Made by a program: the position numbers and the translations under genes. Below, in pieces: positions 9,547-30,720 of a DNA stretch of 64,000 bases (position 1 is its first letter; the number at the start of each line of letters is the position of its first letter). Source of the DNA: Hyphococcus sp. (GTDB lineage Bacteria; Pseudomonadota; Alphaproteobacteria; Caulobacterales; Parvularculaceae); contig JAJFGB010000010.1 in NCBI GenBank assembly GCA_021776335.1, positions 62,001-126,000 of the forward strand, read 5' to 3'. Under the pieces are notes generated by a model. That model was not told the DNA's origin and did no database searches. It was given only the letters and a program-made list of their open reading frames with translations.

Positions 9547-10248
9547 GCCGCCCCTCCGCAAATTCCGCGGGTAAAAACCCCGCGTGTAGTTTGTTGCACA
9601 TGAATTTGCGACGTTCGCAGCGACATGCGTCTCCCCATGACGCGATAACAATCCGGCAGCGAAAAACCCCGGCGGTGCGTGAATAAATTTGCATAGATGG
9701 CACAAAGCATTGTTTTTACTGTTATTTTTCTACGAATAGCATACCTAAGGGTAAGCCACAGAGAATCTACATTGATAGTGGCATGAATTACCCATCAGCC
9801 TACAGATCAACGAAGAAAGAATCAGCCACCAACTGGAGTCATTGTCTTCATGCCGACATTCCGCACACAATCGGGACACGAGTTAACGTACGCAGATTCG
9901 CAAAACCGGGGATAAATTTTTCTTTCGCATGCGGAACGATTCCAATTATGAAAGAAACAAGCCGCGAGCGAATCAGGCATGCCGCCATCCTTCGTCACTC
10001 GCAGCTTATGCTGCGCGCATCGCAGGATGAGGGGCGGTCTATCGTTCAAAGCCGTATCGCCATCCTTTGAGGCTCGAGATTTCCCCAGGCTGGGGAAGAT
10101 CGGCTTACGACCGATCAATCGCGCCGCCATCCTTCGAGGCTCCCCCGGATCAAGCCCGGGGTCGCACCTCAGGATGAGGGACGGTTCGTATATTCAAAAA
10201 ATTTCAATGAAACCCGAAAGACCTGATGGCCGGAAAGGCTGAATCGCG
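9547..10248. other. Gene-free gap between receptor and FecR, filled by repeats
   Basis: I see no gene in these 700 bases. The part next to the receptor is its leader. From about 9985 to 10180 the sequence is a mosaic of REP-like units and small perfect hairpins. The receptor and FecR read the same way, so the repeats may separate their expression. Confidence 0.6.
9985..10180. repeat. Cluster of REP-like palindromic elements
   Basis: Units beginning CCATCCTTCG and ending CAGGATGAGGG occur at 9985-10034 and 10127-10180, with a partial one at 10060-10078. Between them sit two perfect hairpins: TTCCCCAG and CTGGGGAA around one base (10081-10097), and GATCGG with CCGATC (10098-10116). The same unit recurs at 15337, 27265, 27339, 29002 and 29068 in this window, so it is a dispersed genomic repeat. 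Confidence 0.8.
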
Positions 10249-11346
10249 TCAGCCTTGTTGGTTTGCGTCCGCCCGAAGAACAATGCCGGCGTCGGCGCGC
10301 TGCTCCACGCGAATGTCAAACAGGCTCTCCAGCGCATTCGCAAAGTTCCGGCTGCTGCCGACGCGAAAAACGCCGCTGACCCGAAGCGTCTCCAGGTCCT
10401 TTTCCGCAAGCGTAATTTTCGTTGACGAATAGCGGTTCATTTCGGCAATCGCCTCAACCAGCGGCGTGTTGCGAAAATTGACCTTGCCCTCATGCCACGC
10501 AACGGCGCGATCGATATCAATTGTCGCAATCGGCGACATCACGCCCGCCGGTGCAATCGCCGCCTGCTCGCCGGGGGAAAGCTCTGTGCGGAACACGGCT
10601 TCAGGCGCTGCCGATCCGGTCAGTGATTTGACACTCCACGAGCGGGACGGCGCCGATGCAATTTCAACTTTGCCCTCGATCAGGGTCACGGTGACGGCGT
10701 CGCCCGACTTATAAACATCGAACTGGGTCCCCAGCGCGCGCACAACCTCATCGCCGGCGCTGACAATGAAGGGCCGGTCCGCATCGCTCGCCACATCGAA
10801 GTTCGCCTGACCGTCGAGCAATGAAATCCGGCGCTCGTCAGCGGCATAGCTGACCTTGATTGACGTTGCGGTGTTGAGCATGACGGTCGAACCATCATCG
10901 AGTTCTATGGTCCGCTGCTCGCCCAGCGCCGTGCGATAGACGCCTGCGCCCGGATCAGCAACATTAAAGACAGCAACCGCCGCAATAATCGCGAGGCCGG
11001 ATATCGCCACGGCCCCCTGCGGCGACAAGAGCCGCCGCCAGGCCGCCCCAACCGGTTTCAATATACCGTGCCGCGCACGCCCGGCGGTGCGGCGCCGCAC
11101 CGCCTTCAGGGTTTCGCGGACAATTTCGGATTCGCCAAGGGGCTCCATCCTGTCCCACAGCCCCGCCAGCCGGGCGTAGGCTTGCGCATTTTCAGGGCGC
11201 GCCCGCAACCAGGTTTCGAAAACATCGACATCCGCCGGCCCGGCCTCGCCGGAAAAAAGTTTGACCTGCCACGCAACGGCGGCATCCCTCGCCGATGCCT
11301 GTTCGCCTGGATTCATTGATAGTATCTCTGTACTGACGTTCATCAT
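10249..11346 (-). CDS. FecR-family anti-sigma / signal transducer
   Basis: Inner-membrane protein that holds or activates the partner sigma factor in response to the receptor. The first 80 residues are the cytoplasmic FecR N-terminal region (WQVKLFSG, then a W-L-R pattern), a single membrane helix lies at about 111-129, and the periplasmic FecR domain follows (for example the segment around GEQRTIELDDGS). The last 70 residues resemble a second STN-like fold, as in many Caulobacterales and Sphingomonadales FecR proteins. The start ATG-ATG is four bases after the sigma stop, with GGAG overlapping that stop, so the two are co-translated. It lies 700 bases upstream of its presumed receptor partner. 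The family assignment is firm; pairing with the lasso receptor is inferred from order. Confidence 0.9.
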   Translation of the reverse strand: MMNVSTEILSMNPGEQASARDAAVAWQVKLFSGEAGPADVDVFETWLRARPENAQAYARLAGLWDRMEPLGESEIVRETLKAVRRRTAGRARHGILKPVGAAWRRLLSPQGAVAISGLAIIAAVAVFNVADPGAGVYRTALGEQRTIELDDGSTVMLNTATSIKVSYAADERRISLLDGQANFDVASDADRPFIVSAGDEVVRALGTQFDVYKSGDAVTVTLIEGKVEIASAPSRSWSVKSLTGSAAPEAVFRTELSPGEQAAIAPAGVMSPIATIDIDRAVAWHEGKVNFRNTPLVEAIAEMNRYSSTKITLAEKDLETLRVSGVFRVGSSRNFANALESLFDIRVEQRADAGIVLRADANQQG

Positions 11347-11349
11347 TCT

Positions 11350-11952
11350 CTACTCCGCCGCCTGGCGTTGTTGAACATCGGCGTTTATCGCATCAACGCG
11401 GTCCCTTATATGGGTGATCGCCTGATGCATATAATATTCGATGGATTTAACGGTAAGGCCCATATAGCCCGCCGCCTCTTTATAGGAATGTCCTTCAAAG
11501 CGCACCAGCAGGAAAACCATCCGGCATTTCGGGCTCAGCTCCTCTATCGCCGCCTCGACAATGGCAAGTTCCTGGCGACCCTGCGTCACGCGCTCCGGCG
11601 ACGGCGACGAACACACAACTTCGACTTCGGCGACGTCATCGATAGAAAAATGCGCATCGGCGCCGATATAGCGGCGATGCTGGTTGCGATTGAAAATGAG
11701 ATTCCGCGCGGCCTGAAACAGATAGGCCCGGGGCTGCTTGATGGCGGCAACGTCCGGCTGGCGCGCAATCTGGCAGTATAAATCCTGCGCCACATCCGCC
11801 ACATCCTCGGTGTCACCCATGCGGCGGCGCAAATAGCGAATAAGCGACTGGTGATTGTCCTGGACCAGGGATCTCAGAAAAGAGGCTTTCTCGACCCGAA
11901 CCGCCGGGCGATCGGAATCACAGTCCAAATCATCAAGACTGCCATGAGCCAT
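11350..11952 (-). CDS. FecI-type ECF sigma factor
   Basis: A 200-residue extracytoplasmic-function sigma factor. Region 2 is seen around SLIRYLRRRMGD through the Q-D-L-Y segment and the RAYLFQAARNL stretch, which contacts the -10 element. Region 4 is the helix-turn-helix from LSPKCRMVFLL to SVKSIEYYMHQA-like residues. The start at 11952 has GGTGA five bases upstream; a GTG nine bases earlier is also open. It is the first gene of the sigma-FecR pair and would direct transcription of the receptor and isopeptidase once FecR is signalled. A perfect 22-base inverted repeat lies 86 bases upstream. Confidence 0.88.
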   Translation of the reverse strand: MAHGSLDDLDCDSDRPAVRVEKASFLRSLVQDNHQSLIRYLRRRMGDTEDVADVAQDLYCQIARQPDVAAIKQPRAYLFQAARNLIFNRNQHRRYIGADAHFSIDDVAEVEVVCSSPSPERVTQGRQELAIVEAAIEELSPKCRMVFLLVRFEGHSYKEAAGYMGLTVKSIEYYMHQAITHIRDRVDAINADVQQRQAAE

Positions 11953-11961
11953 TGTTTTCAC

Positions 11962-12619
11962 CGAACGGGATATCCCTGTTGTCCCGTTACTGCCCTGTTA
12001 CGCATGACCTGATTCAAGGTTCAGGCCAAAAGAATATATAGTTCAAGAGCTTGAACTATTGCACCGCTAACATACAAGAATCAACATTCCCGCGGATCAA
12101 GCGGCCCCAGGTTGTTTTTTGGCGCCTCAAACGCCGCTGGCTATGATTGGGCGCAACAATTGCTGAAATATATTGCGCCGGAAACTACGGCATGAATATC
12201 CATGGTCACCGCGCGAAACAAAGCAGCGCCAGCGCCGCGACAGATGCGATGCGCCGCCGGACTATACATTAGTCCAAATAAACCGGATCGAAGACCGAAT
12301 AAACCAAACCACGCAATCCGACATACAGGATTTCGCGCGACGCTGCCTGATTATCGCAAAACATTCCTTGTACATACAAAAACCACACGCCACCGGCATG
12401 CGGACGCCCGGCTAATTAAAACTATGTATCATCATGCCTGAATGCGCATGCATCTCGTCGGGTGACATAGAATTAAATTATTTAAAATGTAACCTTGTCT
12501 GTGCTCAAATTAATCACCAACAAAAATCGCAGGGCATCAGCGAATATATTTGTACAGCCCCGTAAAGATGTTTATCTTTAGCAATTCGAAGTCATCAATT
12601 AACAACAGGGATGCCTTGC
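11962..12619. other. Divergent gap between the sigma factor and the hydantoinase gene
   Basis: About 650 bases with no gene I can support; short open frames here show no recognisable product. It must hold promoters for both directions. The only clear structure is the inverted repeat at 12038-12059. The stretch near 12460-12560 is AT-rich and suits a promoter for the gene that follows. Confidence 0.55.
12038..12059. promoter_or_regulatory. Perfect 10-2-10 inverted repeat upstream of the sigma gene
   Basis: ATAGTTCAAG and CTTGAACTAT flank two bases. The arms are perfect complements. A further TTCAAGGTTCA stretch at about 12013 repeats the half-site. This is a strong candidate operator for a dimeric regulator acting on the sigma-FecR operon. 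Confidence 0.6.
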
Positions 12620-14161
12620 ATGCGAATTGGCGTGGATGTCGGCGGCACCAACACGGACGCTGTCGTCATGGACGGCGATCGCCTTCTTGGCGCTGCAAAA
12701 ACACAAACAACCCCGCGCACAAATATCGGCATTACACGGAGCATCAAGAAAGCGCTTGACGCCGCCGGCGTCGCCCCATCGAAAATTCGCGCCGCCATGA
12801 TCGGCACCACGCAAATCACCAATGCCCTCTCAGAGCGGCGCAACCTGGCACAGGCAGCCATTATCCGGTTATGCCTGCCAGCGAACCGGGCCGTCAGCCC
12901 GATGATGGACTGGCCGGCGGATATCGCCGCCGCGATCGGCGATAATATTTACTGGGCCCAGGGCGGCGCGCAATTTACCGGCGCCACGTTCTCTCCGCTT
13001 GACGACCACAAGATTTTACGAATCGGCCACGACGTGAACAAAAAAGGCATTCGTCATATTGCGATTACCGGCCTGTTCTCACCGGTTCAGCACAGGATGG
13101 AAAAGCGCGCAGCAAAAATAATCCGTAATGCCTTTCCGCATATGGGCGTCACCCTGTCACATAAGGTCGGCGGTCTCGGATTCGTCGAGCGGGAAAATAC
13201 GACAATCCTGAACGCAGCCCTCGGCGAAATCGGGCTGAATATCGCCGCTGAATTCGCGGCAGCGCTTAAAAAGGCCAAAATATCGGCGCCGATATTCGTC
13301 AGTCAAAATGACGGCACATTGATGAAAGCGAATTTCGCGCGGCAATATCCAATCTTCATGGCCAAGTCCGGCCCGACCAACAGCATGATCGGCGCGGCGC
13401 ATCTCAGCGGCGCAAAAAACGCCGTTGTCGTCGATATCGGCGGCACCACGACGGATGTCGGCGCACTTTTTGACGGAGCGCCGCGGGAAAAGAGCCTGAA
13501 CACGGATTTGTGCGACATCAGAACAAATTTCCACATGCCCGACACCATGTCGATTGCGCTCGGCGGCGGATCGACAATCGTGTTTGATCCTGAACTGCGC
13601 ATCGGCCCGAAATCCGTCGCGCGCGATCTGGAACGGCGCGGCGTGATTTTTGGCGGTGATGTCCTGACCGCGACAGATATTGCTGTCGGCGCCGGCCGCA
13701 TAAATCTCGGCGACCGCAGTCGTCTCGGCGGTATCTCGCGGGAAAAAATCACGGAAGCGGACCGCCGCATCCATGAAATCGTGGCGCTGGCCGCTGAACA
13801 GATGAATCTCAGCTCCACGCCCGCGGAAATCATCCTTGTGGGCGGCGGCACATGTCTTATTGGCGAAACGCTTGCACGCGCAAAATCCGTATCGCAGCTG
13901 GAACACGGCAATGTTGCAAACGCAGTCGGCGCCGCCGTGGCGAGGATCAGTGGAGAAGACAGCAGTGTCGCCTCCTATCGGAAAACAGACCGAAAAAAGG
14001 CGATCAAAAAAGCGGTCGCACGCGCCTGCCGGCGCGCCGCCAAACTGGGGGCCGACCCGGAAACCGTCGCGCCCATCGCCGTCGAGGAAACATCCCTGTC
14101 GCACCAGCACGGAGATCGCGTCCGCATACGTGTCAGGGCCGCCGGCAGGATCATGCTCTGA
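12620..14161 (+). CDS. Hydantoinase/oxoprolinase family ATPase, copy 1
   Basis: About 513 residues of the HyuA/oxoprolinase N-terminal type, an actin-like ATP-binding fold. The phosphate loops are clear: GVDVGGTNTDAV at the start and DIGGTTTDVG near residue 275, and a GGGS turn (ALGGGST). Family members hydrolyse 5-oxoproline, hydantoins or carboxylate ketones with ATP; this class lacks the HyuB half and usually pairs with DUF917 proteins, as here. I choose the ATG at 12620 because AGGG lies nine bases before it; an ATG at 12611 abuts that site. The DUF917 gene begins 13 bases after the stop. A paralogous pair lies at 21,593-24,260. The substrate cannot be read from the sequence. Confidence 0.85.
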   Translation: MRIGVDVGGTNTDAVVMDGDRLLGAAKTQTTPRTNIGITRSIKKALDAAGVAPSKIRAAMIGTTQITNALSERRNLAQAAIIRLCLPANRAVSPMMDWPADIAAAIGDNIYWAQGGAQFTGATFSPLDDHKILRIGHDVNKKGIRHIAITGLFSPVQHRMEKRAAKIIRNAFPHMGVTLSHKVGGLGFVERENTTILNAALGEIGLNIAAEFAAALKKAKISAPIFVSQNDGTLMKANFARQYPIFMAKSGPTNSMIGAAHLSGAKNAVVVDIGGTTTDVGALFDGAPREKSLNTDLCDIRTNFHMPDTMSIALGGGSTIVFDPELRIGPKSVARDLERRGVIFGGDVLTATDIAVGAGRINLGDRSRLGGISREKITEADRRIHEIVALAAEQMNLSSTPAEIILVGGGTCLIGETLARAKSVSQLEHGNVANAVGAAVARISGEDSSVASYRKTDRKKAIKKAVARACRRAAKLGADPETVAPIAVEETSLSHQHGDRVRIRVRAAGRIML

Positions 14162-14174
14162 AAGGATTACATTC

Positions 14175-15296
14175 ATGAACACCGAAACGGGCCAGTTCAT
14201 TCTTCGGCCAGGCGATATTGATGCGCTGGTGTACGGGGCTTCGTTTTTGGGGTCCGGCGGCGGCGGCGATCCTTATATCGGGCGCCTGATTTTAATGCGG
14301 GAAATGGAAGCGGCGCCGGCGCTTCCTGTCATTGACCCGGCGGCTGTTCCCGATGACGCAAACATTATCGGCATCGGCGCGGTGGGCGCGCCCTCCGTTC
14401 TCATTGAACGCCTGCCCAATGTTGATTCTTTTGTCTATGCGCTCAAACGCGTGGAACAGCACAGCGGCAAGAAAATCGATGCAATCATTCCGATTGAGGC
14501 AGGCGGCATCAACGCGACATTGCCGCTTGCGGTCGCCCTGCGCGCCGGCCTTCCGGTCATTGACGCCGACGGCATGGGCCGCGCTTTCCCGGAAACACAG
14601 ATGATGACGTTCAGCATTAACGGCTATCTCGCCTCGCCGCTTTATCTTGTTGATGATCATGGCGACTGCACCATCGTCGAGACAAAAGACAACGCCAAGA
14701 CCGATCGCTGGATCCGGTCGGTTATCGACGCCATGGGCGGCGCCGCCATGGCCGCAGCCTATCCGCTTACGGGCAAGATGCTTAAAGCCGCCGCCGTGCG
14801 CAATACGATTTCAACGCAACTCAATATCGGCCGGACGGTTTACGCCGCAAGGCATAAAAAACGCGATCCGGTTAAAGCGCTGGTGCGGCATTTCCGCGAT
14901 CACGGGACCGAGCCCCGTTTTGCGGCAAGCCTGTTTACCGGCAAAGTGTCCGATCGGAACATCAAGATCGACGGCGCCTTTAATATCGGGAGACTGCGCA
15001 TTTCAGATATGCGAAACCCTGACGATGTCTGCAGGATCGCCGTGAAGAACGAAAACCTTATTGTTCGGCAGGGCGGAAAAGTGCTGGCTGTCGTGCCGGA
15101 CATCATTACGGTGGTTGACGCGGACAGCGCCGATCCGATCACCACCGAAAATCTGAAATTCGGCCAGCGCGTTAAAGTTATCGCCCTCGCCGCACCCGAT
15201 GTCTTGCGCACGCCGAAGGCGCTTGCCGTCGTTGGCCCCCGGGCCTTCAAACTGAAATGTGACTACACGCAGCTGGAAGACCTGCACGACCGGTGA
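14175..15296 (+). CDS. DUF917 family protein, copy 1
   Basis: 373 residues matching the DUF917 family, which Pfam, as I recall, renamed after S-methyl thiohydantoin desulfurase. Typical stretches are the Gly-rich GSGGGGDPYIGR near the start, the EAGGIN motif, ADGMGRAFPE and, near the end, PDIITVVD followed by VGPRAF. The start ATG has AAAGGA nine bases upstream; the frame is open further back inside the preceding gene but that part is out-of-frame noise. It follows its HyuA-like partner by 13 bases in one operon. The two families co-occur widely, suggesting two halves of one reaction on a ring compound. No catalytic residue can be named from sequence alone. Confidence 0.85.
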   Translation: MNTETGQFILRPGDIDALVYGASFLGSGGGGDPYIGRLILMREMEAAPALPVIDPAAVPDDANIIGIGAVGAPSVLIERLPNVDSFVYALKRVEQHSGKKIDAIIPIEAGGINATLPLAVALRAGLPVIDADGMGRAFPETQMMTFSINGYLASPLYLVDDHGDCTIVETKDNAKTDRWIRSVIDAMGGAAMAAAYPLTGKMLKAAAVRNTISTQLNIGRTVYAARHKKRDPVKALVRHFRDHGTEPRFAASLFTGKVSDRNIKIDGAFNIGRLRISDMRNPDDVCRIAVKNENLIVRQGGKVLAVVPDIITVVDADSADPITTENLKFGQRVKVIALAAPDVLRTPKALAVVGPRAFKLKCDYTQLEDLHDR

Positions 15297-15336
15297 ATGC
15301 GCGGGAAAGACATGCCGCGCGCCCAGGCGCGTTGCG

Positions 15337-15373
15337 CCATCCTTCGAGACCGCGGCGCGGCGCCAGGGCATCC
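15337..15373. repeat. Partial REP-like element
   Basis: It begins CCATCCTTCGAGA and ends with a degenerate CATCCTG arm. It is a worn copy of the unit seen at 9985 and 27265. Confidence 0.55.
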
Positions 15374-15418
15374 TGTTTTAAGAATGATTTAGCTGGATGT
15401 CCTGGATTTTTTATTTGC

Positions 15419-15464
15419 GCGTTTTGAGACGGAAAACCGGTGAACCACTTTTCCTTCAAAACGC
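15419..15464. repeat. Alphaproteobacterial palindromic unit ending in CTCTAG
   Basis: Arms GCGTTTTGA (15419-15427) and TCAAAACGC (15456-15464) are perfect complements, with an inner GGAAAA/TTTTCC pair and ACCGGTGAACC in the middle, followed by TCTAG. Similar units are scattered between genes in many alphaproteobacteria. It abuts the stop codon of the convergent LuxR gene and may end transcripts from both sides. Confidence 0.65.
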
Positions 15465-15465
15465 T

Positions 15466-18246
15466 CTAGTGATGGCTGATCGAAACCCTTGGCTGAAAGC
15501 CGCCGTCAGCCACAGGCTCGATTTCACGTTCGACCAGTTTCAGCCGGGTGGCTTCCGCGACCAGGCGCATGCTGCTTGAAACGCCGAAAAGCTCGAACAT
15601 TCGTTTCAAATGATATTGCACATTATGGGTCGTGGTTTCCGCCCTGTCGGCAATTTCATTGCGATCGCAGCCTTCCACAAGAAGCTTCAGAATTTTCAGC
15701 TGTTGCGCCGTGAGGTCCGGCATTGCGAGGCGCTTGTCAGGCGGCAAATAGTCCGACGATTTGATAAGCCACAGAAGCATTGTCTCGTTAAACGCTTCCG
15801 CCCTTTTTGTCTTTGAGAAGCGCCGCGCCGCTTCATCCAGCAGGTCCTGCGCAAGCAGTCCCTCCTCCAGATAAAAGGATCGCATACCCAGCTTCTCGCC
15901 GGTCTCGATCAGTTCGCGAAGCAGAACGGCCGCCTCCTGCGTCTGGCCGCTTGCGAAAAGCGCCAGGGCCCGCAACGTTCCGGATTTCAACTCGATCCAT
16001 TTGAGGTTCGCAGGCTGAAAATTCTTGTCAAACTTGTCCAGCGCTGAAAGCGCAAGGGGGGCCCGGTCGTGCGCGATTTCCAGGCGAATGAGGGCGAACG
16101 CCTGCTCCGCGTCCGCGCGCCAGCCAAAACGCGGAAGCGGTCCATATTCAAGGGCGTTCAATTTATATTCCATCCATTTAGCGACCCTGTCCGCCGATTT
16201 CAGATCGTCGGCGGCCGTGGCGAGATGAATTTTCTGGGCCACAAAGATACGTTCAAGCCGTTCAAATTTATGCTTCTGCGCAACCGCGATGCCTTGCCCC
16301 AGTAATTCGAAAGCTGCCTCCAGACCCTTGTTGGCGTATTCAAGCCGCGCCTCAACGCGAAACGCAGCGCAGAGCAATTCAACCCAATAGTCGCCGTTCG
16401 AAACAATGGTCGCACGCGCGCCGCCGAAAATCTTCCTGGCTTCCTCCAGGCTGCCCGACTGATACAACCGCTCGGCGCCGCTAACGTCGATAACCGCCGA
16501 CAATGTACTGTCATCGGACAAATATCGCCTGTGCAGCTCCCTTGCGTCATCGTAGAAACCTTTTGCAGCCTTGATGTCGCCTTTGAGGATGGAAACCATC
16601 CCGCGATGCGCACAATTGTTGACAATGCTGAACTGAGATTGCGCTTCGGAAAAATGGTCTATGGATAAGCCAAACGCCTGATCGGCGTCGTCAACCCGAC
16701 CTTCGCGGAAATAAAGCATGCCAAGGGCGTTATTTAACACGCCCAGATACATCGCACTATTGATGTCGTCCCGCAACCGCGCTTCTTCAAGCGTTCGCAC
16801 GAGAGCTTCGCTTTGATTATTATCCGTATAGACTTGAAATATCGCCATGATCAAGAAACGATCAAGACGTGCATATTTGCCAACGACCTTGTCTTCCTTG
16901 TCGCGCGATTTTTTTCCGGCGTCCGATTTCTCCTCAGCCTGTCGAAGCACTGCATCGGCTTCATCAAATCGCCCAGCCTTGATGAGGTAGAAAGCGTAAG
17001 CAGGCAGCAGTCGGAAGGCTTTTTTGGGGAACTTCCGGTCAATATAGCGCATCACCCGCATGAAAGAAGTGAAATCCACGGCAAGCCAGAACAAACCAAA
17101 TTCGGGCTTATCAAGAATTTTCTCGATGAGGGTCTGATCGCCGGCGTCGATAGCGTGTACAAGAGACAGTTGCAGCTCGCCGCGGCGGTCAAAATAATCC
17201 GACGCGCGCACGTGAAGCGCCCTGATCTCCTCAGCGCTCCTAAAGCCGTAAAGGCGGTTGCGCAGGTAATCAGCAAACAGCCGATGATGGCGATATCGCC
17301 CGTTCGGCGGCGCATCCGGAATTATAAACGCGTCAATATCTTCAAGGCGGCGCAGCATCTGTTCGCTGTCGTCGCGGTCCAGCACTTCATCGGCGAGTTC
17401 CGCGTCGAACCAGGAAAAGACAGACGTATCGGCGAGAAAGGTCTGCGCACCTTCCGGCAGCGTTACAAAAATTTCCTGTGTAAAATAATTTGCAACGTCC
17501 GGCAGGTCGCCGGAAAAAGAGTTTACAAATTCCGGCGAACGCCTGCCGCCCTTTATCATAAGTTTCGCAATGCCCAGCGCGGCGGGCCAGCCTTCGACTT
17601 TCGCGATCAGGTTTTCGGCGTCGGTCATGGTCAAGCCGTCCGCTTCAAACAGCTGATGCGTTTCCGACACCCCGAAGACGAGATCGTTTTGCGTAAACTC
17701 AGCCAGCTCTCCGTCCAGGCGCATTTTGGCAACGCCGCAGGCAGGCTCACTGCGCGCCGCAAGAATAACCCGTATGTTGCTCGGCGCCTGCTGCAACAGG
17801 ATCTTCAGCAACTGATCGTTTTCGACGCTGGCCGCATTTTGATATTCATCAATAAAAAAAACGAGATCGCGGGGATGAGATCCAAGACGCTCGGCAAATT
17901 CCGCAATGAGCGTTTCCGGGAGCGCCGTGTCATTGCCGGCTTTGCAGCGCGCCGGAAAATCCCCCATATCGACACCCGCATCGCCGCAGGCGTCGGCAAG
18001 GCTCAGGATAAACCGTCGCGGATCATTATCGCCCGCTGACGGCGCCGCCCAGATGCGTGAAACCTCTCCCCCTTCAAGAGCGTCCCGATATTGCCGAAGA
18101 ATAGTGGTCTTGCCATAACCGGCGGGCGCCCGAACCAGGACGAATTTTTTATCCGACTGTTTTTTCAGATTGTTGATAAGGGTTGTTCTCAACAACCTGC
18201 CCGCTTTCGGAGAAACGGAATGCCTGTATTGGATCGATGTCACCAT
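15466..18246 (-). CDS. MalT-like LuxR regulator (large ATP-binding type)
   Basis: A 926-residue transcription activator of the LAL/MalT class. An N-terminal STAND ATPase carries Walker A APAGYGKTT at residues 40-48 and a Walker B-like LVFFIDEYQ. A long middle of tetratricopeptide-like helical repeats would bind the inducer, and the last 65 residues form a LuxR helix-turn-helix (LTAQQLKILKLL, then NVQYHLKRMF). Such proteins form oligomers on binding ATP and an inducer, as MalT does with maltotriose. It lies between the two HyuA-DUF917 pairs and next to a TonB receptor, so it is the best candidate for control of this locus. No strong ribosome site precedes the ATG. The residues of the sensor part do not reveal the ligand. 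Confidence 0.88.
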   Translation of the reverse strand: MVTSIQYRHSVSPKAGRLLRTTLINNLKKQSDKKFVLVRAPAGYGKTTILRQYRDALEGGEVSRIWAAPSAGDNDPRRFILSLADACGDAGVDMGDFPARCKAGNDTALPETLIAEFAERLGSHPRDLVFFIDEYQNAASVENDQLLKILLQQAPSNIRVILAARSEPACGVAKMRLDGELAEFTQNDLVFGVSETHQLFEADGLTMTDAENLIAKVEGWPAALGIAKLMIKGGRRSPEFVNSFSGDLPDVANYFTQEIFVTLPEGAQTFLADTSVFSWFDAELADEVLDRDDSEQMLRRLEDIDAFIIPDAPPNGRYRHHRLFADYLRNRLYGFRSAEEIRALHVRASDYFDRRGELQLSLVHAIDAGDQTLIEKILDKPEFGLFWLAVDFTSFMRVMRYIDRKFPKKAFRLLPAYAFYLIKAGRFDEADAVLRQAEEKSDAGKKSRDKEDKVVGKYARLDRFLIMAIFQVYTDNNQSEALVRTLEEARLRDDINSAMYLGVLNNALGMLYFREGRVDDADQAFGLSIDHFSEAQSQFSIVNNCAHRGMVSILKGDIKAAKGFYDDARELHRRYLSDDSTLSAVIDVSGAERLYQSGSLEEARKIFGGARATIVSNGDYWVELLCAAFRVEARLEYANKGLEAAFELLGQGIAVAQKHKFERLERIFVAQKIHLATAADDLKSADRVAKWMEYKLNALEYGPLPRFGWRADAEQAFALIRLEIAHDRAPLALSALDKFDKNFQPANLKWIELKSGTLRALALFASGQTQEAAVLLRELIETGEKLGMRSFYLEEGLLAQDLLDEAARRFSKTKRAEAFNETMLLWLIKSSDYLPPDKRLAMPDLTAQQLKILKLLVEGCDRNEIADRAETTTHNVQYHLKRMFELFGVSSSMRLVAEATRLKLVEREIEPVADGGFQPRVSISHH

Positions 18247-18434
18247 ATCTCAGTCGTACTCATCACGTTCGATTCATGATCAAGGCCGGCGATCCCCCTG
18301 GATAAGACTGACCCTACATCACCAGCTTTTATTGACAACATCGCCGTACAAATCCCGACCCATGCTTGCCGATTATACGCGGCCCTGCGCCCGCCTCGCG
18401 AAACCGGCCCGGAACGAGTGGAAGCATTATGCGC

Positions 18435-20564
18435 TCAAAACCGGATGCGCGCCTCAACGCCATAGGATGCAGGTTGACCGCGGAAACCAATATCGAACCC
18501 GAGCCCGGAAAATTCATTTGGATTGAAATCCGTATAATATTGTTGGCCGGTGATGTTGCGTCCCCAGACGTAAAGTCCCCAGTGATCGGCTTCAAAACCG
18601 GCCCGGAAGTTAAGCAGGTTGAACGGGTCCTGAACGTCAAGATTATCAACCTGCCAGAAACGCTCGCCGCGCCGCTCGAAATCCACGCGCATGATGCCAA
18701 AAACATCATTAAACACCGGGAAACGGTACTGTGATCCGAGATTGAACGATATATCGGTTGTCTTGGGCGAATGATTGCCAACCGATGTCGGGAACGGAAC
18801 ATTTTCCTTGATTTCCGTATCTGTCGTACCCAATCCGGCGTAAATCTGCCATCCGTCAGCAAGATTTGCCTGGGCCTCAAATTCAACGCCAAAAATTTCG
18901 ACGCGATCGATATTGGAAATGATTTGTCCGCCCGCCGCGAGGTCGAGAAAGAAGAATTGAAAGTCTTCGACAAAAGAATAAAAGACGGCGCCGTTCAGCG
19001 TCAGACGATTGTCCCACAATTGAGATTTAAACCCGCCTTCGACGCTGCGCGTGATCTCGCTGCGGAAAGGCGCAACGCCGGGCGCGTTAAAACCGCCTGA
19101 GCGAAATCCCTCGCCATAGGTCGCATAAAGCAGAGCGTCGTCGTGAACATCGTAGCTGAGCGTGAGTTTCGGCTGCACGGCGGAAAATGAAATCTCGCGC
19201 GTTGCGCCCGTAAGAAGGTCTTCCTGAAACCGGTTATCCTCGTCATAGCGCACGCCGGCGGCAATTTTAAACCGCTCGGTAATATCATATTCAAGCTCGC
19301 CATAGATCGACCAGGCGTCATTATCGTCATCTTCCGTCTGGCGCAGGAAGATCAGGCTTGGGTCGTTGACCTGATTGGGGTCGCCATTGAGATCGACAAA
19401 CAGCACCGCTTCCAGCTGACGATCCGTATGGATATAAAATGCGCCGGCAAGCCAGCGAAACCGCTGGTCGTTCGGCGACACCAGACGCAGCTCCTGACTG
19501 ATCATCGCCACATCGAGATCGGATCCCTGCCCCAGCGATCCAAAGCCAAAGCCGCCGGCGGGATTGTTGATCGGGTTGGAAAAATCGATGTCGCCGCGGA
19601 CTTCCTCGTCCAACTCGGTATATCCGGTGATTGCCGTCAGCATTGCAAAACCCATATCCACATCGGCCTTGAACGTCGCTTCAAACACATCACCGACAGC
19701 GTCGGCGGGAAGATTGTTGCTCGGGTCCTGAATATCATTGGCGTCGCCGCTCGGCACAAATGAATCATAAAGCGTGCCCGCTTCAAAATCATTGTACATG
19801 ACGCGCGCATCAAGCGTGATATTGTCGCTTGCAAGATATGTCAGCTTGCCGCGAATATTGTAGTCATGATCAATCGCATCCGCATTCACGCCCAGAAACG
19901 AATTTTCGATGCGCCCGCCATCTTCTTTGTAGGAACCGGCGATGCGAAACAACAACCGGTCTTCGACAAGCGGGCCGCTGACGCCCCCTGTAAATTCAAC
20001 GGCGTCGCCATTGCCGTAAAGGCCGCTTAAAAATCCCTCAAATTCGTTCGTCGGCTGCCGCGTGATAATCCTGATCGCGCCCCCCGATGCATTCCGGCCG
20101 TAAAAGGCGCCTTGCGGCCCTTTCAAAACCTCGATCCGTTCGACGTCAAAGAGGTTCATCTTAAACTGTCGCTGATTGTTTTGCGGCACGCCGTCGACGA
20201 TGATTGCGAGCGGAGAATCGGCATTGTTGATTTGCGCAACACCACGGACAACGGCGAATGTGTTGAGATATGTAAAAGAATCATCGAGTGAAACATTGGG
20301 CGTCAGATCAATAAAATCCTGTGTCGTTGCGATGCCTGCATTGATAATATCGACGGCCTCGAACACCTTGATCTGAATAGGCACCTCGTGAAGCGGTTCT
20401 TCGCGGATGCGCGCCGTCACCGTGATGACATCCCTGCCTTCGGCGGCGGCAGGATCATCCCCCTGCTGTGCCTGGGCTGGCGCTATGACGGCGCCGGCAA
20501 TATAGGCGGCGCTTGCAAGCCAGGCCGTATGTAGGTTTTTCGTGTTTTTGGTTGGCATTTTCAT
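18435..20564 (-). CDS. TonB-dependent receptor of the HyuA-DUF917 locus
   Basis: 709 residues with a signal peptide ending near APAQAQ, a TonB box-like DVITVTAR, a plug with YGRNASGGAIRI, and a barrel ending in the aromatic terminus VEARIRF. It is of the iron-complex/vitamin-like short type without an STN domain. Transcribed the same way as the MalT-like gene, 188 bases upstream of it, and divergent from the second HyuA-DUF917 pair. It probably brings the substrate of these enzymes across the outer membrane. The region upstream has an inverted repeat TGATTAA/TTAATCA at 20821-20844 that could be an operator. Confidence 0.88.
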   Translation of the reverse strand: MKMPTKNTKNLHTAWLASAAYIAGAVIAPAQAQQGDDPAAAEGRDVITVTARIREEPLHEVPIQIKVFEAVDIINAGIATTQDFIDLTPNVSLDDSFTYLNTFAVVRGVAQINNADSPLAIIVDGVPQNNQRQFKMNLFDVERIEVLKGPQGAFYGRNASGGAIRIITRQPTNEFEGFLSGLYGNGDAVEFTGGVSGPLVEDRLLFRIAGSYKEDGGRIENSFLGVNADAIDHDYNIRGKLTYLASDNITLDARVMYNDFEAGTLYDSFVPSGDANDIQDPSNNLPADAVGDVFEATFKADVDMGFAMLTAITGYTELDEEVRGDIDFSNPINNPAGGFGFGSLGQGSDLDVAMISQELRLVSPNDQRFRWLAGAFYIHTDRQLEAVLFVDLNGDPNQVNDPSLIFLRQTEDDDNDAWSIYGELEYDITERFKIAAGVRYDEDNRFQEDLLTGATREISFSAVQPKLTLSYDVHDDALLYATYGEGFRSGGFNAPGVAPFRSEITRSVEGGFKSQLWDNRLTLNGAVFYSFVEDFQFFFLDLAAGGQIISNIDRVEIFGVEFEAQANLADGWQIYAGLGTTDTEIKENVPFPTSVGNHSPKTTDISFNLGSQYRFPVFNDVFGIMRVDFERRGERFWQVDNLDVQDPFNLLNFRAGFEADHWGLYVWGRNITGQQYYTDFNPNEFSGLGFDIGFRGQPASYGVEARIRF

Positions 20565-21592
20565 CTCGTTGGCGCCCTTCCGGTTCGACGGCTCTTAAAG
20601 TGTTGAGTCCGGTTTCCCGTTTCTCCCTAAAAATTACCCGCCCTAAACCACAGTTTCCGGCAGCGGTGACGCCCTGACGCCCCGACACCGATGCGGATCA
20701 CGTCATTTCCTGCCTCGCCTGGCGGTGGGCCCGGCAGTAGAAATGGCGCTGTAACCGAGGAACGGCGCAGCGGTCCAAGGCCCGCCATGGGCCAATATAC
20801 ATGAAAAACTATGAAAGACATGATTAATTACTATGGTTTAATCAAGCCCAACACAAAAAACACTGCCCCATCGGACAAATTCGCGGCCTGTTCGCCCAGA
20901 AAGCAAGGCTGAAAGCAAGGCTGAAAGCAAGACCGGCAGCCCAACCCTGCCGGCTGTCAGGGGATTTCCGTGATTTTTCTCAAAAGCAGCTCTGGCAGCG
21001 CGGGGGCGATCCGGCCCCGATCACCGGGCGCCATATTGCCCGGCTCGCCCCTCAGCGCGTCCCCGCTGCAGTTGTCTGATACAAAACCCCTTCTCTGTCG
21101 CAGGTTTCTCAAAAATATACCTCAGTATGCGAGGAGCCGCCCCGCCTCCCCCAATCGTCCTTGCCAACGTCACTGCCGGCGCCAGCGAAAAACCGCCGCA
21201 ATCCTGCCCGCACCCACAAAATATCCTTATACTGATGATTGTGCGCCGGGCTTTTCCCCTTATTCCAGATGACCGGATTGTCATTGTTGATCAGGATCAA
21301 TTTGTCGACGCATGCGCCATGACACGTCGACCATCCCGCGAGAAAAGCCGCGCATAAATATAATAGACGTGAAAGGCGGCAGTCAGAAAATGTTTCCGGT
21401 CATCAATGTGTATAACTGATGGACAAGTGATGTCTGCATTTAGGGATGCGCTTGCTGCGACTGTCTTCTTTTTAACGGATATTAATTTTGCTTTTTTGCC
21501 GAAAGCATTTTCAACCGATCCACAATCGTTGATGATGCGACCGCGTTTTACAACTCGAAACAGGGCTAGTGGGGCGCCGAGGGAGACCAGGG
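20565..21592. other. 1-kb divergent gap with an inverted repeat, tandem 12-mers and a hairpin
   Basis: No gene is supported here. Structures seen are TGATTAA (20821-20827) with TTAATCA (20838-20844), three tandem 12-base units GAAAGCAAGGCT (20899-20934, the last imperfect), and directly after them a perfect hairpin CCGGCAG/CTGCCGG (20933-20953). The gap separates the receptor from the second HyuA gene and should hold promoters for both. Confidence 0.6.
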
Positions 21593-23143
21593 TTGCGTGT
21601 TGGCGTTGACATTGGCGGCACAAATACCGACGCCGCAATCATTCTCGGCAACGAAGTCCTTGGCGCGCACAAAACTCAAACCCGGGATGATTTCAGCGAC
21701 AGCGTGAAAAGCGCGATCAGCGAAGCCTTGAAAAATGCACAGGCGGCGCCTGCCGATGTCGCCACCGTGACGCTTGGCACTACGCAGTTTACCAATGCGT
21801 TTACCGAACGCAAAAGATTGCAGCGCGTTGCAATCCTGCGCATCTGCCTGCCCTTCAGTCGGGACATCGAGCCTATGCTCGACTGGCCGTCTGATCTGAA
21901 ATACATCCTCGGCAGCAATATTTACATGGTGCGCGGCGGCTTTGAATTTGACGGCAGCGAGGCCGCCTCGCTCGACGAGATCGGAATCCGGAACGCTGCC
22001 CGCGACATGCGCGGCCGGGGTCTGCGCCATATCGCGGTGTCGTGCATTTTTTCAACAATCAATGATGCAATGGAAATACGCGCCGGTGAGATCATCGCAC
22101 GGGAAATACCGGATGCTCACATCACCCTCTCAAGCCGGGTCGGGCGCCTGAACCTGATCGACCGAGAGAACGCCGCCCTGATTAATGCGTCCCTTGGCGA
22201 TCTCGGCGCCGCTGTTGTTGAGAGCTTTGCCGATGCGCTGACGACGCTCGGCATAACAGCGCCGTTCTTCGTTTCGCAAAACGACAGCTCTCAGATACCG
22301 CCCGAACACGCCGCGCGCAATCCAGTGCTTACCTATTCGTCGGGCGCGGCCAACAGCATTCGCGGCGCAGCGCATCTGACACAATGTGACAATGCAATCG
22401 CCGTCGACATTGGCGGCACGACGACCGATATCGGCGTTCTCAAAAAAGGTTTCCCGCGCGAACGCTCACGGCCGCAGCCTTTCGGCGGCGTCCGCACGAA
22501 TTTTCGTATGCCGGATTTGCTGTCCATCGGGCTCGGCGGCGGCAGCATTGTCGAGCTTGGCCGGAACCTCAGTATTGGCCCTGAATCGGTCGGCGGTGAA
22601 CTCAAAAGCAAGGCGCTGGTTTATGGCGGCGATGTGCTGACCGCGACGGATATCGCCGTCGCCGCGGGACGGGTGACGCTTGGCGATCCGGCGCATCTCG
22701 CCGGCATCCCCGCCAAAGAGCTGGCGCGCGCCGACCGGTTAATCCAGAAAATAATCGCAGACGCCATCAACAAAATGAAAACCACCGCAGAGGATATTCC
22801 TGTCATCATTGTCGGCGGCGGGCGCATTTTGGCCGCCCATGAGCTGCCTGGCGGGACGCGCCTGCGCACTCCCGATCACGCCGGCGTTGCAAACGCAATT
22901 GGCGCAGCTATTGCGCTGCTCAGCGGCAACGCCGAACAGATTTTTGACTACGGTCAGACCGACAGCACCGAGGCGATCGCCGAAATGACGCAAAGGGCGC
23001 GGCAACAGGCCGTCGCCATCGGCGCGGACCCGGCAACCTTGCGTGTCATCGACGTGGAAGAAATTCCGGTTCCTTATACCGACGGCAAAATGACGCTGGT
23101 GCGCGTGAAAGTCGTTGGCGATCCGCTGATGGAGCGCAGTTGA
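21593..23143 (+). CDS. Hydantoinase/oxoprolinase family ATPase, copy 2
   Basis: About 516 residues, clearly paralogous to the gene at 12,620: RVGVDIGGTNTDAA at the start, TLGTTQFTNA, DIGGTTTDIG and GLGGGS in the same order. I place the start at the TTG at 21593, seven bases after GGGAG; a GTG at 21569 is also open but adds eight residues that look unlike the family. The DUF917 partner starts one base after the stop. Having two diverged pairs flanking one regulator and one receptor suggests either two related substrates or two steps of one pathway. Confidence 0.85.
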   Translation: MRVGVDIGGTNTDAAIILGNEVLGAHKTQTRDDFSDSVKSAISEALKNAQAAPADVATVTLGTTQFTNAFTERKRLQRVAILRICLPFSRDIEPMLDWPSDLKYILGSNIYMVRGGFEFDGSEAASLDEIGIRNAARDMRGRGLRHIAVSCIFSTINDAMEIRAGEIIAREIPDAHITLSSRVGRLNLIDRENAALINASLGDLGAAVVESFADALTTLGITAPFFVSQNDSSQIPPEHAARNPVLTYSSGAANSIRGAAHLTQCDNAIAVDIGGTTTDIGVLKKGFPRERSRPQPFGGVRTNFRMPDLLSIGLGGGSIVELGRNLSIGPESVGGELKSKALVYGGDVLTATDIAVAAGRVTLGDPAHLAGIPAKELARADRLIQKIIADAINKMKTTAEDIPVIIVGGGRILAAHELPGGTRLRTPDHAGVANAIGAAIALLSGNAEQIFDYGQTDSTEAIAEMTQRARQQAVAIGADPATLRVIDVEEIPVPYTDGKMTLVRVKVVGDPLMERS

Positions 23144-23144
23144 T

Positions 23145-24260
23145 ATGTGGTTCCAACGCGAATTGCGCATCGGACCGGGTGATCTCAACGAGGTCATTTA
23201 TGGAACCGCCATTCTTGCATCCGGCGGCGGCGGCGATCCTTATCTTGGTCGCCTGATCCTGATGCAGGCGCTTCAAAAACACGGGGCCAAGACAATGCTC
23301 GACCCGGCAAAAGTCAAAGATCGCTGGCTGGTCGTCGCCCTTGGCGCCGTCGGCGCACCGCCGATCGCGCTTGAAAAATTTCCAAGCCTCACGGCGCTGG
23401 CCGCCGCTATCGCAACACTGGAACGGCATCTCGGGCGCAAGGTCGACGCCATCGTCGCAGCCGAAGCCGGCGGACTAAACGCTGTGGTGCCGATCGCGCT
23501 CGGCCTCAGGCTTGGTCTTCCGGTTATCAATGCCGACGGCATGGGCCGCGCCTTTCCCAAAAACGATATGATGACTTTTGGCATCTATGGCGGTCGTGCG
23601 GCGCCCACCGCGATCGCCGACGATCATATGAGTTCGGTTATCGTCGACGCCGATGACAACCGCACACTGGAAAGGCTCGCCCGCAGCGCCGTCATCGCCA
23701 TGGGCGGCATCGCGATGGCGGTGACCTATCCGATGTCCGGGAAATTTTTCAAAACCGCCGCCATTCGCGGCACGCTGACGCTGGCGCGTGACATTGGCCG
23801 GGTGGCGCTTGCCGCAAACCATCAAAAAAGCGATCCGATCGACGCGATCATCGGCTATTTTCGCAAGCAGGCTAGTCCCCGGCGATACGCCGCGAAGCTG
23901 TTCACCGGCGCGGTCTTGCGCCACGCACCGAAAACCGACGAGGCCTTTGTTCGGGGCGAGATCGCGGTGGAAAACAGAGACAGCGGCGAGATCTGCACTC
24001 TCGAATTCCATAATGAAAACCTGATCGCCCGTATTGACGGACGCGTCGTCGCGCTGGTGCCGGACATTATCACGGTTCTGGATGAGGACACCGGCGAAGC
24101 GCTCACCACGGAAAATGTGCGCTTTAACCAGCGCGTCACCATCTTTGGGCTGGCGGCGCCGGAAATTTTGCGGACGCCCGAAGCGCTCGCCCATGTCGGC
24201 CCCCGCGCCTTTGATATCGATCTCGACTACACGCCGATTGAAACCCTTGCAGACGCCTGA
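23145..24260 (+). CDS. DUF917 family protein, copy 2
   Basis: 371 residues, paralogous to the protein at 14,175, with the same landmarks: ASGGGGDPYLGR, EAGGLN, NADGMGRAFPK, PDIITVLD and VGPRAF. The ATG comes directly after the HyuA stop, so the two are translationally linked. As for copy 1, the family name points to thiohydantoin-type substrates, but the substrate here is unproven. Confidence 0.85.
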   Translation: MWFQRELRIGPGDLNEVIYGTAILASGGGGDPYLGRLILMQALQKHGAKTMLDPAKVKDRWLVVALGAVGAPPIALEKFPSLTALAAAIATLERHLGRKVDAIVAAEAGGLNAVVPIALGLRLGLPVINADGMGRAFPKNDMMTFGIYGGRAAPTAIADDHMSSVIVDADDNRTLERLARSAVIAMGGIAMAVTYPMSGKFFKTAAIRGTLTLARDIGRVALAANHQKSDPIDAIIGYFRKQASPRRYAAKLFTGAVLRHAPKTDEAFVRGEIAVENRDSGEICTLEFHNENLIARIDGRVVALVPDIITVLDEDTGEALTTENVRFNQRVTIFGLAAPEILRTPEALAHVGPRAFDIDLDYTPIETLADA

Positions 24261-24959: not shown

Positions 24960-26255
24960 ATGCAGAAAATGCTGAAAACATCGCCCGCACAGGATGCGCC
25001 GGATTTGCTCGCGGTCCTGATCGAGGCCTGCCAAAAAGCAGGCGTTCAAAATGCAGGCGCCCAGAATGCAGGCGCCGTGAAAACCACGGCCCGCGGCTTT
25101 GGCTCGCTGGATGCGTTGCGATCTCTGGAGCACGGCGTTTCCGCATCGGCGGCTTCTGCGGATCACGCCCTGGCGGAGGATCTGAGCAAGCTGGTTACAG
25201 AAGATGAGCGCTTTCCCGGCGCCAGCGTCAAAATGATGCGCAATGAAGGCCGCGGCGCGAAATTTTATCCTGACTTTGCCGGCGATCTCCTGATTCAGCG
25301 CACCCTCGAAACCGGCTCGCCGGAAGCTGCGATCGAATGGCTGCAAAAAGTGCTGGCGACAAGCGCCGCAACAGGAAAAACCATCCATCTTCTTCTGGGT
25401 GCGCCGGTGGACAGGGAAATTCAGCTCACGAAAGACATCAAAATCATTCCGTTCGCCGAAATTCCGGACAGCGTGGAAAAGCGATGCATTACCGATATCC
25501 ACAATTCAACGATCATGAATCCGCTTAATTTCAAGCCGCCGGAATCCGCCCTGATAGAGAGCAACCGCATTGAACCCTTTACCCATGATCCCGACAAACG
25601 TCTCGATCTTTCACATGAGGCGTATCGTCAAAGTCACGAGTTGCTGCATGAGGTCGCGCTGGCTTTGACCCTCGTCGGACCGCGCGCTGCTGTTTCAGCG
25701 TCAGGCTGGTTCAGCTTTGACGATCCGGATCTCAACGACGCCCGCGCCGCCGCCAGTGATCAAAGCGGGCATGTGCTTGGAAACCTGCCGGCGCCCAATG
25801 CCGATTGCCCCGTGCTTGATCCGGTAGAGGCGCAAAGCGTTGTGCAAGGCTATCTTGCCGTGAAAGGAAAAACACGGGTGAAGGCGCGCATGGCGCTGCG
25901 GCGCCTTAACCGGGCGCTGCATCGCTGCGGCGCCGGCGCGCGCGCGGCGGAACTCTCGCCGATCTTTGAAACGCTGCTCGGCGACCATGCCGAAATGCAA
26001 GGCGATGACGGGATAACAGCCAGTTCATTCGGGCTTATCGGCGGCGCCGACAGCGACGGAAAACGGAATTTCGATATCGTCAGGCAGGCATACCAGATCC
26101 GCCGCACTTTCGCCTGCAGCGAGCGTGTGGATGAAACGGAATTGAGGAGTGTTGGCGGCGAGAAGATGACGGTTCGCCAGATCGCCGATCACGCCATTAT
26201 CATTGGCGCCGATGCAATCAAGACAATCATTCAATGTCGCGCAGTCCCCGACTGA
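24960..26255 (+). CDS. Hypothetical protein, 431 residues
   Basis: Not recognised. The start ATG follows CGGGAAATATC. The N-terminal part has a short imperfect repeat (AGVQNAGAQNAGA, about residues 26-38). The middle has an IHLLLGAPVDRE strand and a conserved-looking SHEAYRQSHELLHEVALAL helix. The last 60 residues (YQIRRTFACSE, then RQIADHAIIIGADAIK) look like a helical bundle of the kind seen in HEPN-like proteins, but the usual Arg-x4-6-His motif is absent. It is soluble by composition, with no signal peptide. It converges with the pair of XRE regulators downstream. No function is proposed. Confidence 0.65.
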   Translation: MQKMLKTSPAQDAPDLLAVLIEACQKAGVQNAGAQNAGAVKTTARGFGSLDALRSLEHGVSASAASADHALAEDLSKLVTEDERFPGASVKMMRNEGRGAKFYPDFAGDLLIQRTLETGSPEAAIEWLQKVLATSAATGKTIHLLLGAPVDREIQLTKDIKIIPFAEIPDSVEKRCITDIHNSTIMNPLNFKPPESALIESNRIEPFTHDPDKRLDLSHEAYRQSHELLHEVALALTLVGPRAAVSASGWFSFDDPDLNDARAAASDQSGHVLGNLPAPNADCPVLDPVEAQSVVQGYLAVKGKTRVKARMALRRLNRALHRCGAGARAAELSPIFETLLGDHAEMQGDDGITASSFGLIGGADSDGKRNFDIVRQAYQIRRTFACSERVDETELRSVGGEKMTVRQIADHAIIIGADAIKTIIQCRAVPD

Positions 26256-30457: not shown

Positions 30458-30720
30458 TGGCTGACCCTTGTTTTTTTGTTCTTTTGTGTTCCGGCTTTTC
30501 AAGCTTACTCTGGTTCGATTCTTACGCCGGTGCGGATATCAACCATATCATATCTTTTCCGGCGGATTGCGATTTGGTTGTGGCGCCGTCATGCGAAGGG
30601 AACAAGGCGCTGCGGGTTCACTGGAAAATCGCGCCGCACATGCATCATTCTTTAGTTTCGACAGCTGGTTTGATCGTCTATGGTTGGCGGTGCGGGCCAG
30701 TTCGATTGAAAGGCGGCGCG

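Follow-up and report, generated by a model that had tools for sequence, protein, structure and literature searches.

ATP-dependent cyclic amidases such as caprolactamase (CapAB), ATP-dependent hydantoinase and 5-oxoprolinase consist of a HyuA-type ATPase and a HyuB partner. In caprolactamase, residues D11 and D295 of CapA are needed for activity, and the zinc site that opens the ring sits in the partner subunit (PMC8453981). Here we analyze a locus from Hyphococcus sp., an alphaproteobacterium of marine type, in which two HyuA genes are each followed by a gene of the DUF917 family, with a LAL-type LuxR regulator and a TonB-dependent outer-membrane receptor encoded between the two pairs. The locus lies in a stretch of 64,000 nucleotides (the window; G000:C11:62001–126000) of a 4.18-Mb genome, and its genes are named HyuA1 and DUF917_1 (pair 1) and HyuA2 and DUF917_2 (pair 2). 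It has in common with the three HyuA–HyuB systems the HyuA-type ATPase with both phosphate motifs, the fold, the two-gene unit and a link to cyclic amides. It differs from them in that its HyuA proteins are short (516-524 residues) and show no match to the PF19278 domain, and in that DUF917 stands in the place of HyuB.

DUF917 is the former name of the Pfam families S-Me-THD_N and S-Me-THD_C (PF06032 and PF20906). The S-methyl-thiohydantoin and thiohydantoin desulfurases belong to the same PF06032 plus PF20906 family and are of similar length, but the DUF917 proteins of the window score about one quarter of the curated cut-off, are almost constantly paired with HyuA and have different neighbours. 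LAL regulators of the MalT type are ligand- and ATP-dependent activators. In the maltose regulon of Escherichia coli, as in the window, a LAL-type regulator adjoins the outer-membrane gate and the catabolic genes that it presumably controls; however, the window regulator is not MalT, no sugar genes are present and a TonB receptor replaces the porin. A trio of HyuA, DUF917 and ‘cytosine permease’ genes was annotated without a function even in the distant Lactobacillus rhamnosus (WP_005715297-299; PMC7513527). It shares the three-gene core with the window, which has two pairs and, in addition, a LAL regulator and a TonB receptor of the outer membrane. The first-pass annotation of this DNA had called the island undescribed, which holds, within the literature searched, for the version with a receptor and a LAL regulator but not for the core, which is widespread in annotation. 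Searches on thiohydantoin desulfurase, on ergothioneine with hydantoinase and on hydantoinase with TonB and LuxR returned nothing relevant, and the version combining LAL, outer-membrane receptor and doubled ring-opener is new within the literature searched.

The locus is real, recurrent, uncharacterised and of a catabolic type, and its gene content suggests that it belongs with the ATP-dependent cyclic amidases. Gene content, recurrence in relatives, duplication of the whole unit and conservation of the HyuA ATP-site motifs were observed directly. From the genes we predict, as the rather probable function, an inducible pathway that takes up a cyclic amide and opens its ring at the expense of ATP. 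We give even chances to a wider proposal: that HyuA ATPases have, besides HyuB, another and unrelated ring-opening subunit, DUF917, which replaces it, and that in some alphaproteobacteria the resulting enzyme has been built into a complete LAL-controlled and TonB-receptor-fed cyclic-amide route. This would be the first such route to possess an outer-membrane receptor of its own, and ring-openers would recur in it in doubled form, as DUF917 pairs, as HyuB pairs or mixed.

Recurrence of the gene set in other genomes

The comparison covered 119 related genomes and, as wider samples, 385 genomes of the class plus a sample of the phylum. PF06032 was present in 18 of the 119 relatives, and HyuA and DUF917 were directly adjacent in all 14 HyuA-linked loci. 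In the remaining four genomes (L035-L038) the DUF917 protein is longer (441–468 residues), has no HyuA neighbour and probably serves a different function. At the level of the class, DUF917 adjoined a short HyuA in 26 of 28 loci. LAL regulators were found in just 15 of the 119 relatives (E ≤ 1e-10), and one lay beside the locus in 10 of the 14 genomes with a HyuA–DUF917 pair, where 0.1 would be expected (counted within ±10 kb). A TonB receptor stood alongside in eight of these ten LAL-bearing loci, and the five best non-self matches of the window receptor among the 119 genomes (50–89% identity) all came from HyuA–DUF917 loci. Of the 15 loci compared, the window locus included, 8 had an NCS1 permease next to the pair or close by. 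A scan of contigs with one DUF917 query yielded one locus only, in a Marinicaulis relative represented by a metagenome-assembled genome.

In the class sample, LAL, receptor, NCS1 permease and pair were found together again in G264 (two loci) and G132, and LAL, pair, NCS1 permease and an amidase in G292. In the phylum sample, genome G785 (L160 43-13400) carries LAL–HyuA–DUF917–TonB receptor–NCS1–HyuA–HyuB in a single run, with HyuB confirmed. The neighbours of the pair are thus not random, since LAL, TonB receptor and NCS1 permease recur with it. Random neighbours in related genomes would have spoken against the first-pass annotation by its own criterion; the recurrence instead supports its suggestion that a dedicated receptor and a LAL regulator are parts of a catabolic-type island.

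We also considered that the receptor and the LAL regulator could be unrelated neighbours, with only the pair and the NCS1 permease forming a real unit and the receptor taking up a siderophore. TonB receptors are common here (32 first-look candidates in the same genome), and the best NCBIfam match of the window receptor is a siderophore-receptor subfamily (TIGR01783), although its score remains under the cut-off (158.6 of 223.5 bits), so that membership is not assigned. The provenance of its five closest relatives, the LAL association far beyond chance and the presence of this gene constellation in further families of the class argue against this explanation, which we regard as unlikely.

Deviating arrangements were noted as well. 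Two tandem DUF917 genes accompany one HyuA in L135, L136, L137 and L161. In one family, a UvrA-like ABC ATPase of 984 residues (L122 7946-13580; a similar large open reading frame (ORF) is present in L121 and L123) lies upstream of HyuA-DUF917, an unexpected companion for a catabolic pair; in L122 it shares 4 nt with the start of HyuA. Some ORFs of 841–880 residues in L126, L127 and L128 looked like fusions of HyuA with DUF917 but were rejected because their extra N-termini are out-of-frame or antisense-like readings, with a GC content of ~70% in L126 and L128 and no DUF917 inside.

DUF917 as a candidate replacement for HyuB

DUF917_1 and DUF917_2 score above the cut-offs of both PF06032 and PF20906, which places them in the superfamily, and they are the sole PF06032 genes in the whole genome. 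HyuB (PF02538) had no match in the whole genome. The C-terminal domain PF19278, which is present in HyuB-linked HyuA proteins, had no match in HyuA1 (516 residues) or HyuA2 (524 residues). Since the genome is without HyuB and its short HyuA proteins are without a PF19278 match, DUF917 is the only visible partner of HyuA.

In two further loci, on contigs G009:C1 and G002:C8 (L068 6552-19829 and L079 756-17046), twin HyuA–HyuB pairs come after a LAL regulator and a TonB receptor of the same kind, as do a PF01979 amidohydrolase and an MFS permease. Their receptors are 35–36% identical to that of the window, and by their gene content they appear to represent a parallel, likewise doubled cyclic-amide locus. 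DUF917 and HyuB therefore exchange within the setting of LAL and TonB receptor, and one pair of each kind is present in G785.

The alignments and the structure model of DUF917_1 were built on a fragment beginning 7 residues after the full-length start. Only one solved structure is closely related to the model (pLDDT 91), namely 2O3I (Z 40.9, root-mean-square deviation 2.2 over 340 residues), which comes from structural genomics and has no known function; other fold matches are weak (Z 5.4 and below). The invariant or near-invariant polar residues, in full-length numbering, are E108, D132, R136, R181, K204, N292, E293 and D309. The HyuB family has an Asp-His-Asp-His metal tetrad, whereas DUF917 has a different fold without this tetrad. 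It is thus genomic exchange and exclusivity, not homology, that suggest that DUF917 may do the job of HyuB.

The HyuA subunit

The motifs DxGGTxTD (residues 9-16) and DxGGTTTD (residues 275-282) of HyuA1 are invariant in 16 homologues. They are the two ATP phosphate motifs, and their aspartates correspond to D11 and D295 of CapA. The AlphaFold model of HyuA1 (pLDDT 89) matches over ~490–505 residues the folds of acetophenone carboxylase (Apc core subunit, Z 28.7) and acetone carboxylase (Z 27.1). Comparison with caprolactamase CapA gave Z 27.0 (root-mean-square deviation 4.4, 501 residues) and with N-methylhydantoinase Z 18.4.

These matches raise the alternative of an ATP-dependent carboxylase, in which HyuA would activate a ketone or enol and bicarbonate, DUF917 would couple them, and the two pairs would form one hetero-complex like Apc alpha, alpha', beta and gamma. 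The Apc core subunit is indeed the top fold match, yet it lies within ~2 Z units of caprolactamase, and twins exist in the form of HyuA-HyuB twins as well. On the other hand, the genes linked to the pair encode amidases, an aminopeptidase, the NCS1 permease and peptide importers and not ketone catabolism, the scores against the NCBIfam Apc-subunit models are far under the cut-off, and single pairs are the usual state. A carboxylase therefore seems to us improbable, and opening of a cyclic amide is the reading that we retain.

Duplication of the pair

As the first-pass annotation had proposed, the two pairs are diverged copies of one two-gene unit. Over the full length, copies 1 and 2 are 43% identical for HyuA and 49% for DUF917. 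In trees of 44 HyuA and 44 DUF917 proteins, one clade (support 97/96 and 100/100) holds both copies together with the corresponding proteins of G017 and those of G002, which has a single pair, and the HyuA and DUF917 trees pair the two copies alike. These matching clades indicate a block duplication of HyuA and DUF917 together within the lineage.

Genome G017 has both pairs, with identities of 77–83% and 74–78% to the pairs of the window. There, contig C75 ends with pair 2, LAL, receptor and NCS1 permease and contig C68 begins with pair 1, an arrangement that would fit the identical six-gene layout split by a contig break. Between the window species and one other species, dN/dS is ~0.20–0.29 for all four genes of the pairs and 0.12–0.20 for LAL, receptor and NCS1 permease. 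To judge from these values, all the genes look to be under purifying selection and kept as working proteins.

Substrate class

The first-pass annotation had pointed to thiohydantoins as the substrate. This was not borne out: against the NCBIfam models for S-methyl-thiohydantoin and thiohydantoin desulfurase (NF058532, NF058529), DUF917_1 and DUF917_2 reach 80-109 bits, with cut-offs of 440–450, and thiohydantoin is a name carried over from that of the Pfam family. The genome contains one urocanase and hence no evident spare thiourocanate hydratase; among the neighbours identified no ergothionase-like gene was seen, although no search was aimed at ergothionase. Catabolism of ergothioneine or a thiohydantoin, with DUF917 removing the sulfur and HyuA opening the resulting hydantoin, can draw on the Pfam family being named after S-methyl-thiohydantoin desulfurase and on the desulfurase models being the best named NCBIfam matches. 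We nevertheless consider it very improbable in view of these scores, of the single urocanase and of the many transporter types that homologues of the pair adjoin, none pointing to thiols.

In other genomes the pair is linked to Dpp/Opp-type peptide ABC importers (L129, L162), amidases and an M17 aminopeptidase. An enrichment of DUF917 genes in the vicinity of cyclodipeptide oxidases has been reported (PMC11055893). Those loci share with the window a tie of DUF917 to cyclic amide or cyclic dipeptide chemistry; they differ in that no cyclodipeptide oxidase or synthase was seen at the window locus, where a HyuA partner and an outer-membrane receptor are present. The same enrichment could suggest that the pairs make or modify a secondary metabolite of the cyclic dipeptide type instead of degrading one, but with no cyclodipeptide synthase or nonribosomal peptide synthetase among the family matches at the locus, and with a receptor, a permease and a LAL regulator that fit uptake, we find this hardly credible.

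The substrate is most likely a cyclic amide derived from a peptide, for example of the diketopiperazine or substituted hydantoin type. A peptide-derived ring is favoured by the peptide importers, amidases and aminopeptidase, by the cyclodipeptide-oxidase link and by the residue changes in the NCS1 permease described below. At L129 6950-7978, a fusion regulator joins a racemase-like domain of the AroM type to a LuxR helix-turn-helix domain, beside DUF917-HyuA and a Dpp-type ABC importer.

Permease, regulator and presumed control region

The permease belongs to the NCS1 family (PF02133, 54.0 bits with a cut-off of 23.5), and its score against the CodB equivalog model is 156.7 bits, under the cut-off of 326. 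CodB contacts cytosine through Gln105, Trp108 and Phe204 (PMC9379551). At the equivalent positions the permease of the window, which is CodB-like, has Ala123 for Gln105 and Ala230 for Phe204 and keeps Trp108 as Trp126, and the Gln of CodB is kept in none of the locus-linked permeases. Because two of the three cytosine-contact side chains are replaced, the protein is not a cytosine permease, and it may hold a bulkier ring.

In the LAL regulator, AAA_22 and GerE exceed the Pfam cut-offs and TPR_MalT falls just below (41.5 bits; cut-off 45). The stretch of residues 19-386 matches a structure of MalT (8bob), but the whole protein scores 216.9 bits against the MalT model, below the cut-off of 537, and is therefore a regulator other than MalT itself. 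A second LAL paralogue of the same genome (L062 8850-13415, G000:C8; 42-43% identity) lies beside a truncated LAL remnant with no HyuA-DUF917 pair.

In the gap between receptor and HyuA2, a non-coding block of 43 bp (20797-20839) is nearly identical in G017, where the surroundings have diverged. It contains ACTATG-N16-ACTATG, which recurs without mismatch at a single further place in the genome, G000:C3:154587. As a LAL site this motif was rejected and no operator is claimed, its genome counts being about equal to those of a backward-read control. The same intergenic region holds about three copies of a 12-bp direct repeat, GAAAGCAAGGCT (window 20899-20940), which is not found in G017.

Points against the reading and the proposed pathway

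Several observations weigh against a DUF917-based, LAL-controlled cyclic-amide pathway. Two loci at class level have HyuA without a nearby DUF917. LAL is absent from the locus in 4 of the 14 related genomes and the receptor in more, so neither is obligatory. DUF917 has no invariant histidine and therefore no metal site like the Asp-His-Asp-His site of HyuB, which makes the chemistry assigned to it a guess; no solved DUF917 relative has a known function, and those proteins of the S-Me-THD family that have been characterised bear the name of desulfurase rather than amidase. Finally, no match to ACTATG-N16-ACTATG was found before HyuA1, nor a regulator site common to both promoters, so that pair 1 is at most a possible target of LAL.

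In the pathway that we propose, the TonB receptor would bring the ring compound across the outer membrane, and the NCS1 permease, with alanines at CodB-equivalent specificity positions, would carry it across the inner membrane. HyuA would then use ATP to activate the amide of the ring, in the manner of CapA in caprolactamase, whereupon DUF917 would open the ring in place of the zinc subunit HyuB. Breakdown could be finished by amidases, peptidases or amidohydrolases such as those linked to the unit in other genomes. In the presence of the compound or of one of its products, the LAL regulator would turn on the divergent genes for receptor and enzymes. The two pairs could be sister enzymes acting on two related rings, on two enantiomers or in two successive steps.

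Organization of the locus

The six genes listed in the first-pass annotation (two HyuA-DUF917 pairs, LAL and TonB receptor) were all confirmed by ORFs and Pfam matches, but the set is larger, as the NCS1 permease had been omitted (Table 1). The second ATG of HyuA1, at 12620, is the start given in that annotation. For DUF917_1, the TTG at 13836 from the first ORF call was dropped; the ATG at 14175, 13 nt past the HyuA1 stop, is the sensible start.

Table 1. Genes and regions of the HyuA–DUF917 locus (coordinates within the window)
Feature	Coordinates	Strand	Description
FecI sigma factor + FecR + STN-type TonB receptor	6853-11961	-	Possible accessory genes, adjoining pair 1
HyuA1	12611-14161	+	516 aa, short HyuA-type ATPase subunit of pair 1; Pfam PF05378 (Hydant_A_N) + PF01968 (Hydantoinase_A)
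DUF917_1	14175-15296	+	373 aa, S-Me-THD-like, partner of HyuA1; PF06032 175.9 bits + PF20906 190.7 bits
LAL regulator	15466-18246	-	MalT-like STAND ATPase + TPR + LuxR HTH; Pfam AAA, TPR_MalT, GerE
TonB-dependent outer-membrane receptor	18435-20564	-	Pfam Plug + beta-barrel; no STN domain
Divergent intergenic region, receptor/HyuA2	20565-21568	.	~1 kb, presumed control region
HyuA2	21569-23143	+	524 aa, HyuA-type ATPase subunit of pair 2; PF05378 + PF01968
DUF917_2	23145-24260	+	371 aa, S-Me-THD-like, partner of HyuA2; PF06032 152.7 bits + PF20906 195.5 bits
NCS1-family inner-membrane permease	29174-30502	-	PF02133; recurs at related loci; outside the range of the first-pass annotation

Pair 1 faces the FecI, FecR and STN-type receptor genes, which are kept beside pair 1 in G017 (89%, 75% and 47% identity, respectively). 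The island may include this second signalling receptor, which may also be functionally linked to the pair. On the same strand, an S9-family peptidase gene joins the STN-type receptor, FecR and FecI genes (window 4253-11961, minus strand), directly next to pair 1. Directly 3' of pair 2, an ORF of 431 residues (24960-26255) matched nothing in Pfam or NCBIfam, and none of the compared loci holds a relative of it.

Implications

HyuA–DUF917 pairs occur widely among bacteria and are annotated as hydantoinase/oxoprolinase or, on account of DUF917, as desulfurase, and the literature searched contains no tested function for a pair. The exchange of HyuB and DUF917 in one constellation of LAL and TonB receptor provides a concrete and testable assignment for DUF917. 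Cyclic amides are thought to be small enough to pass through porins. If the reading proposed here is true, an outer-membrane receptor and a regulator in the style of MalT can be dedicated to them, and the locus would define a way in which some marine-type bacteria scavenge the nitrogen of ring compounds.

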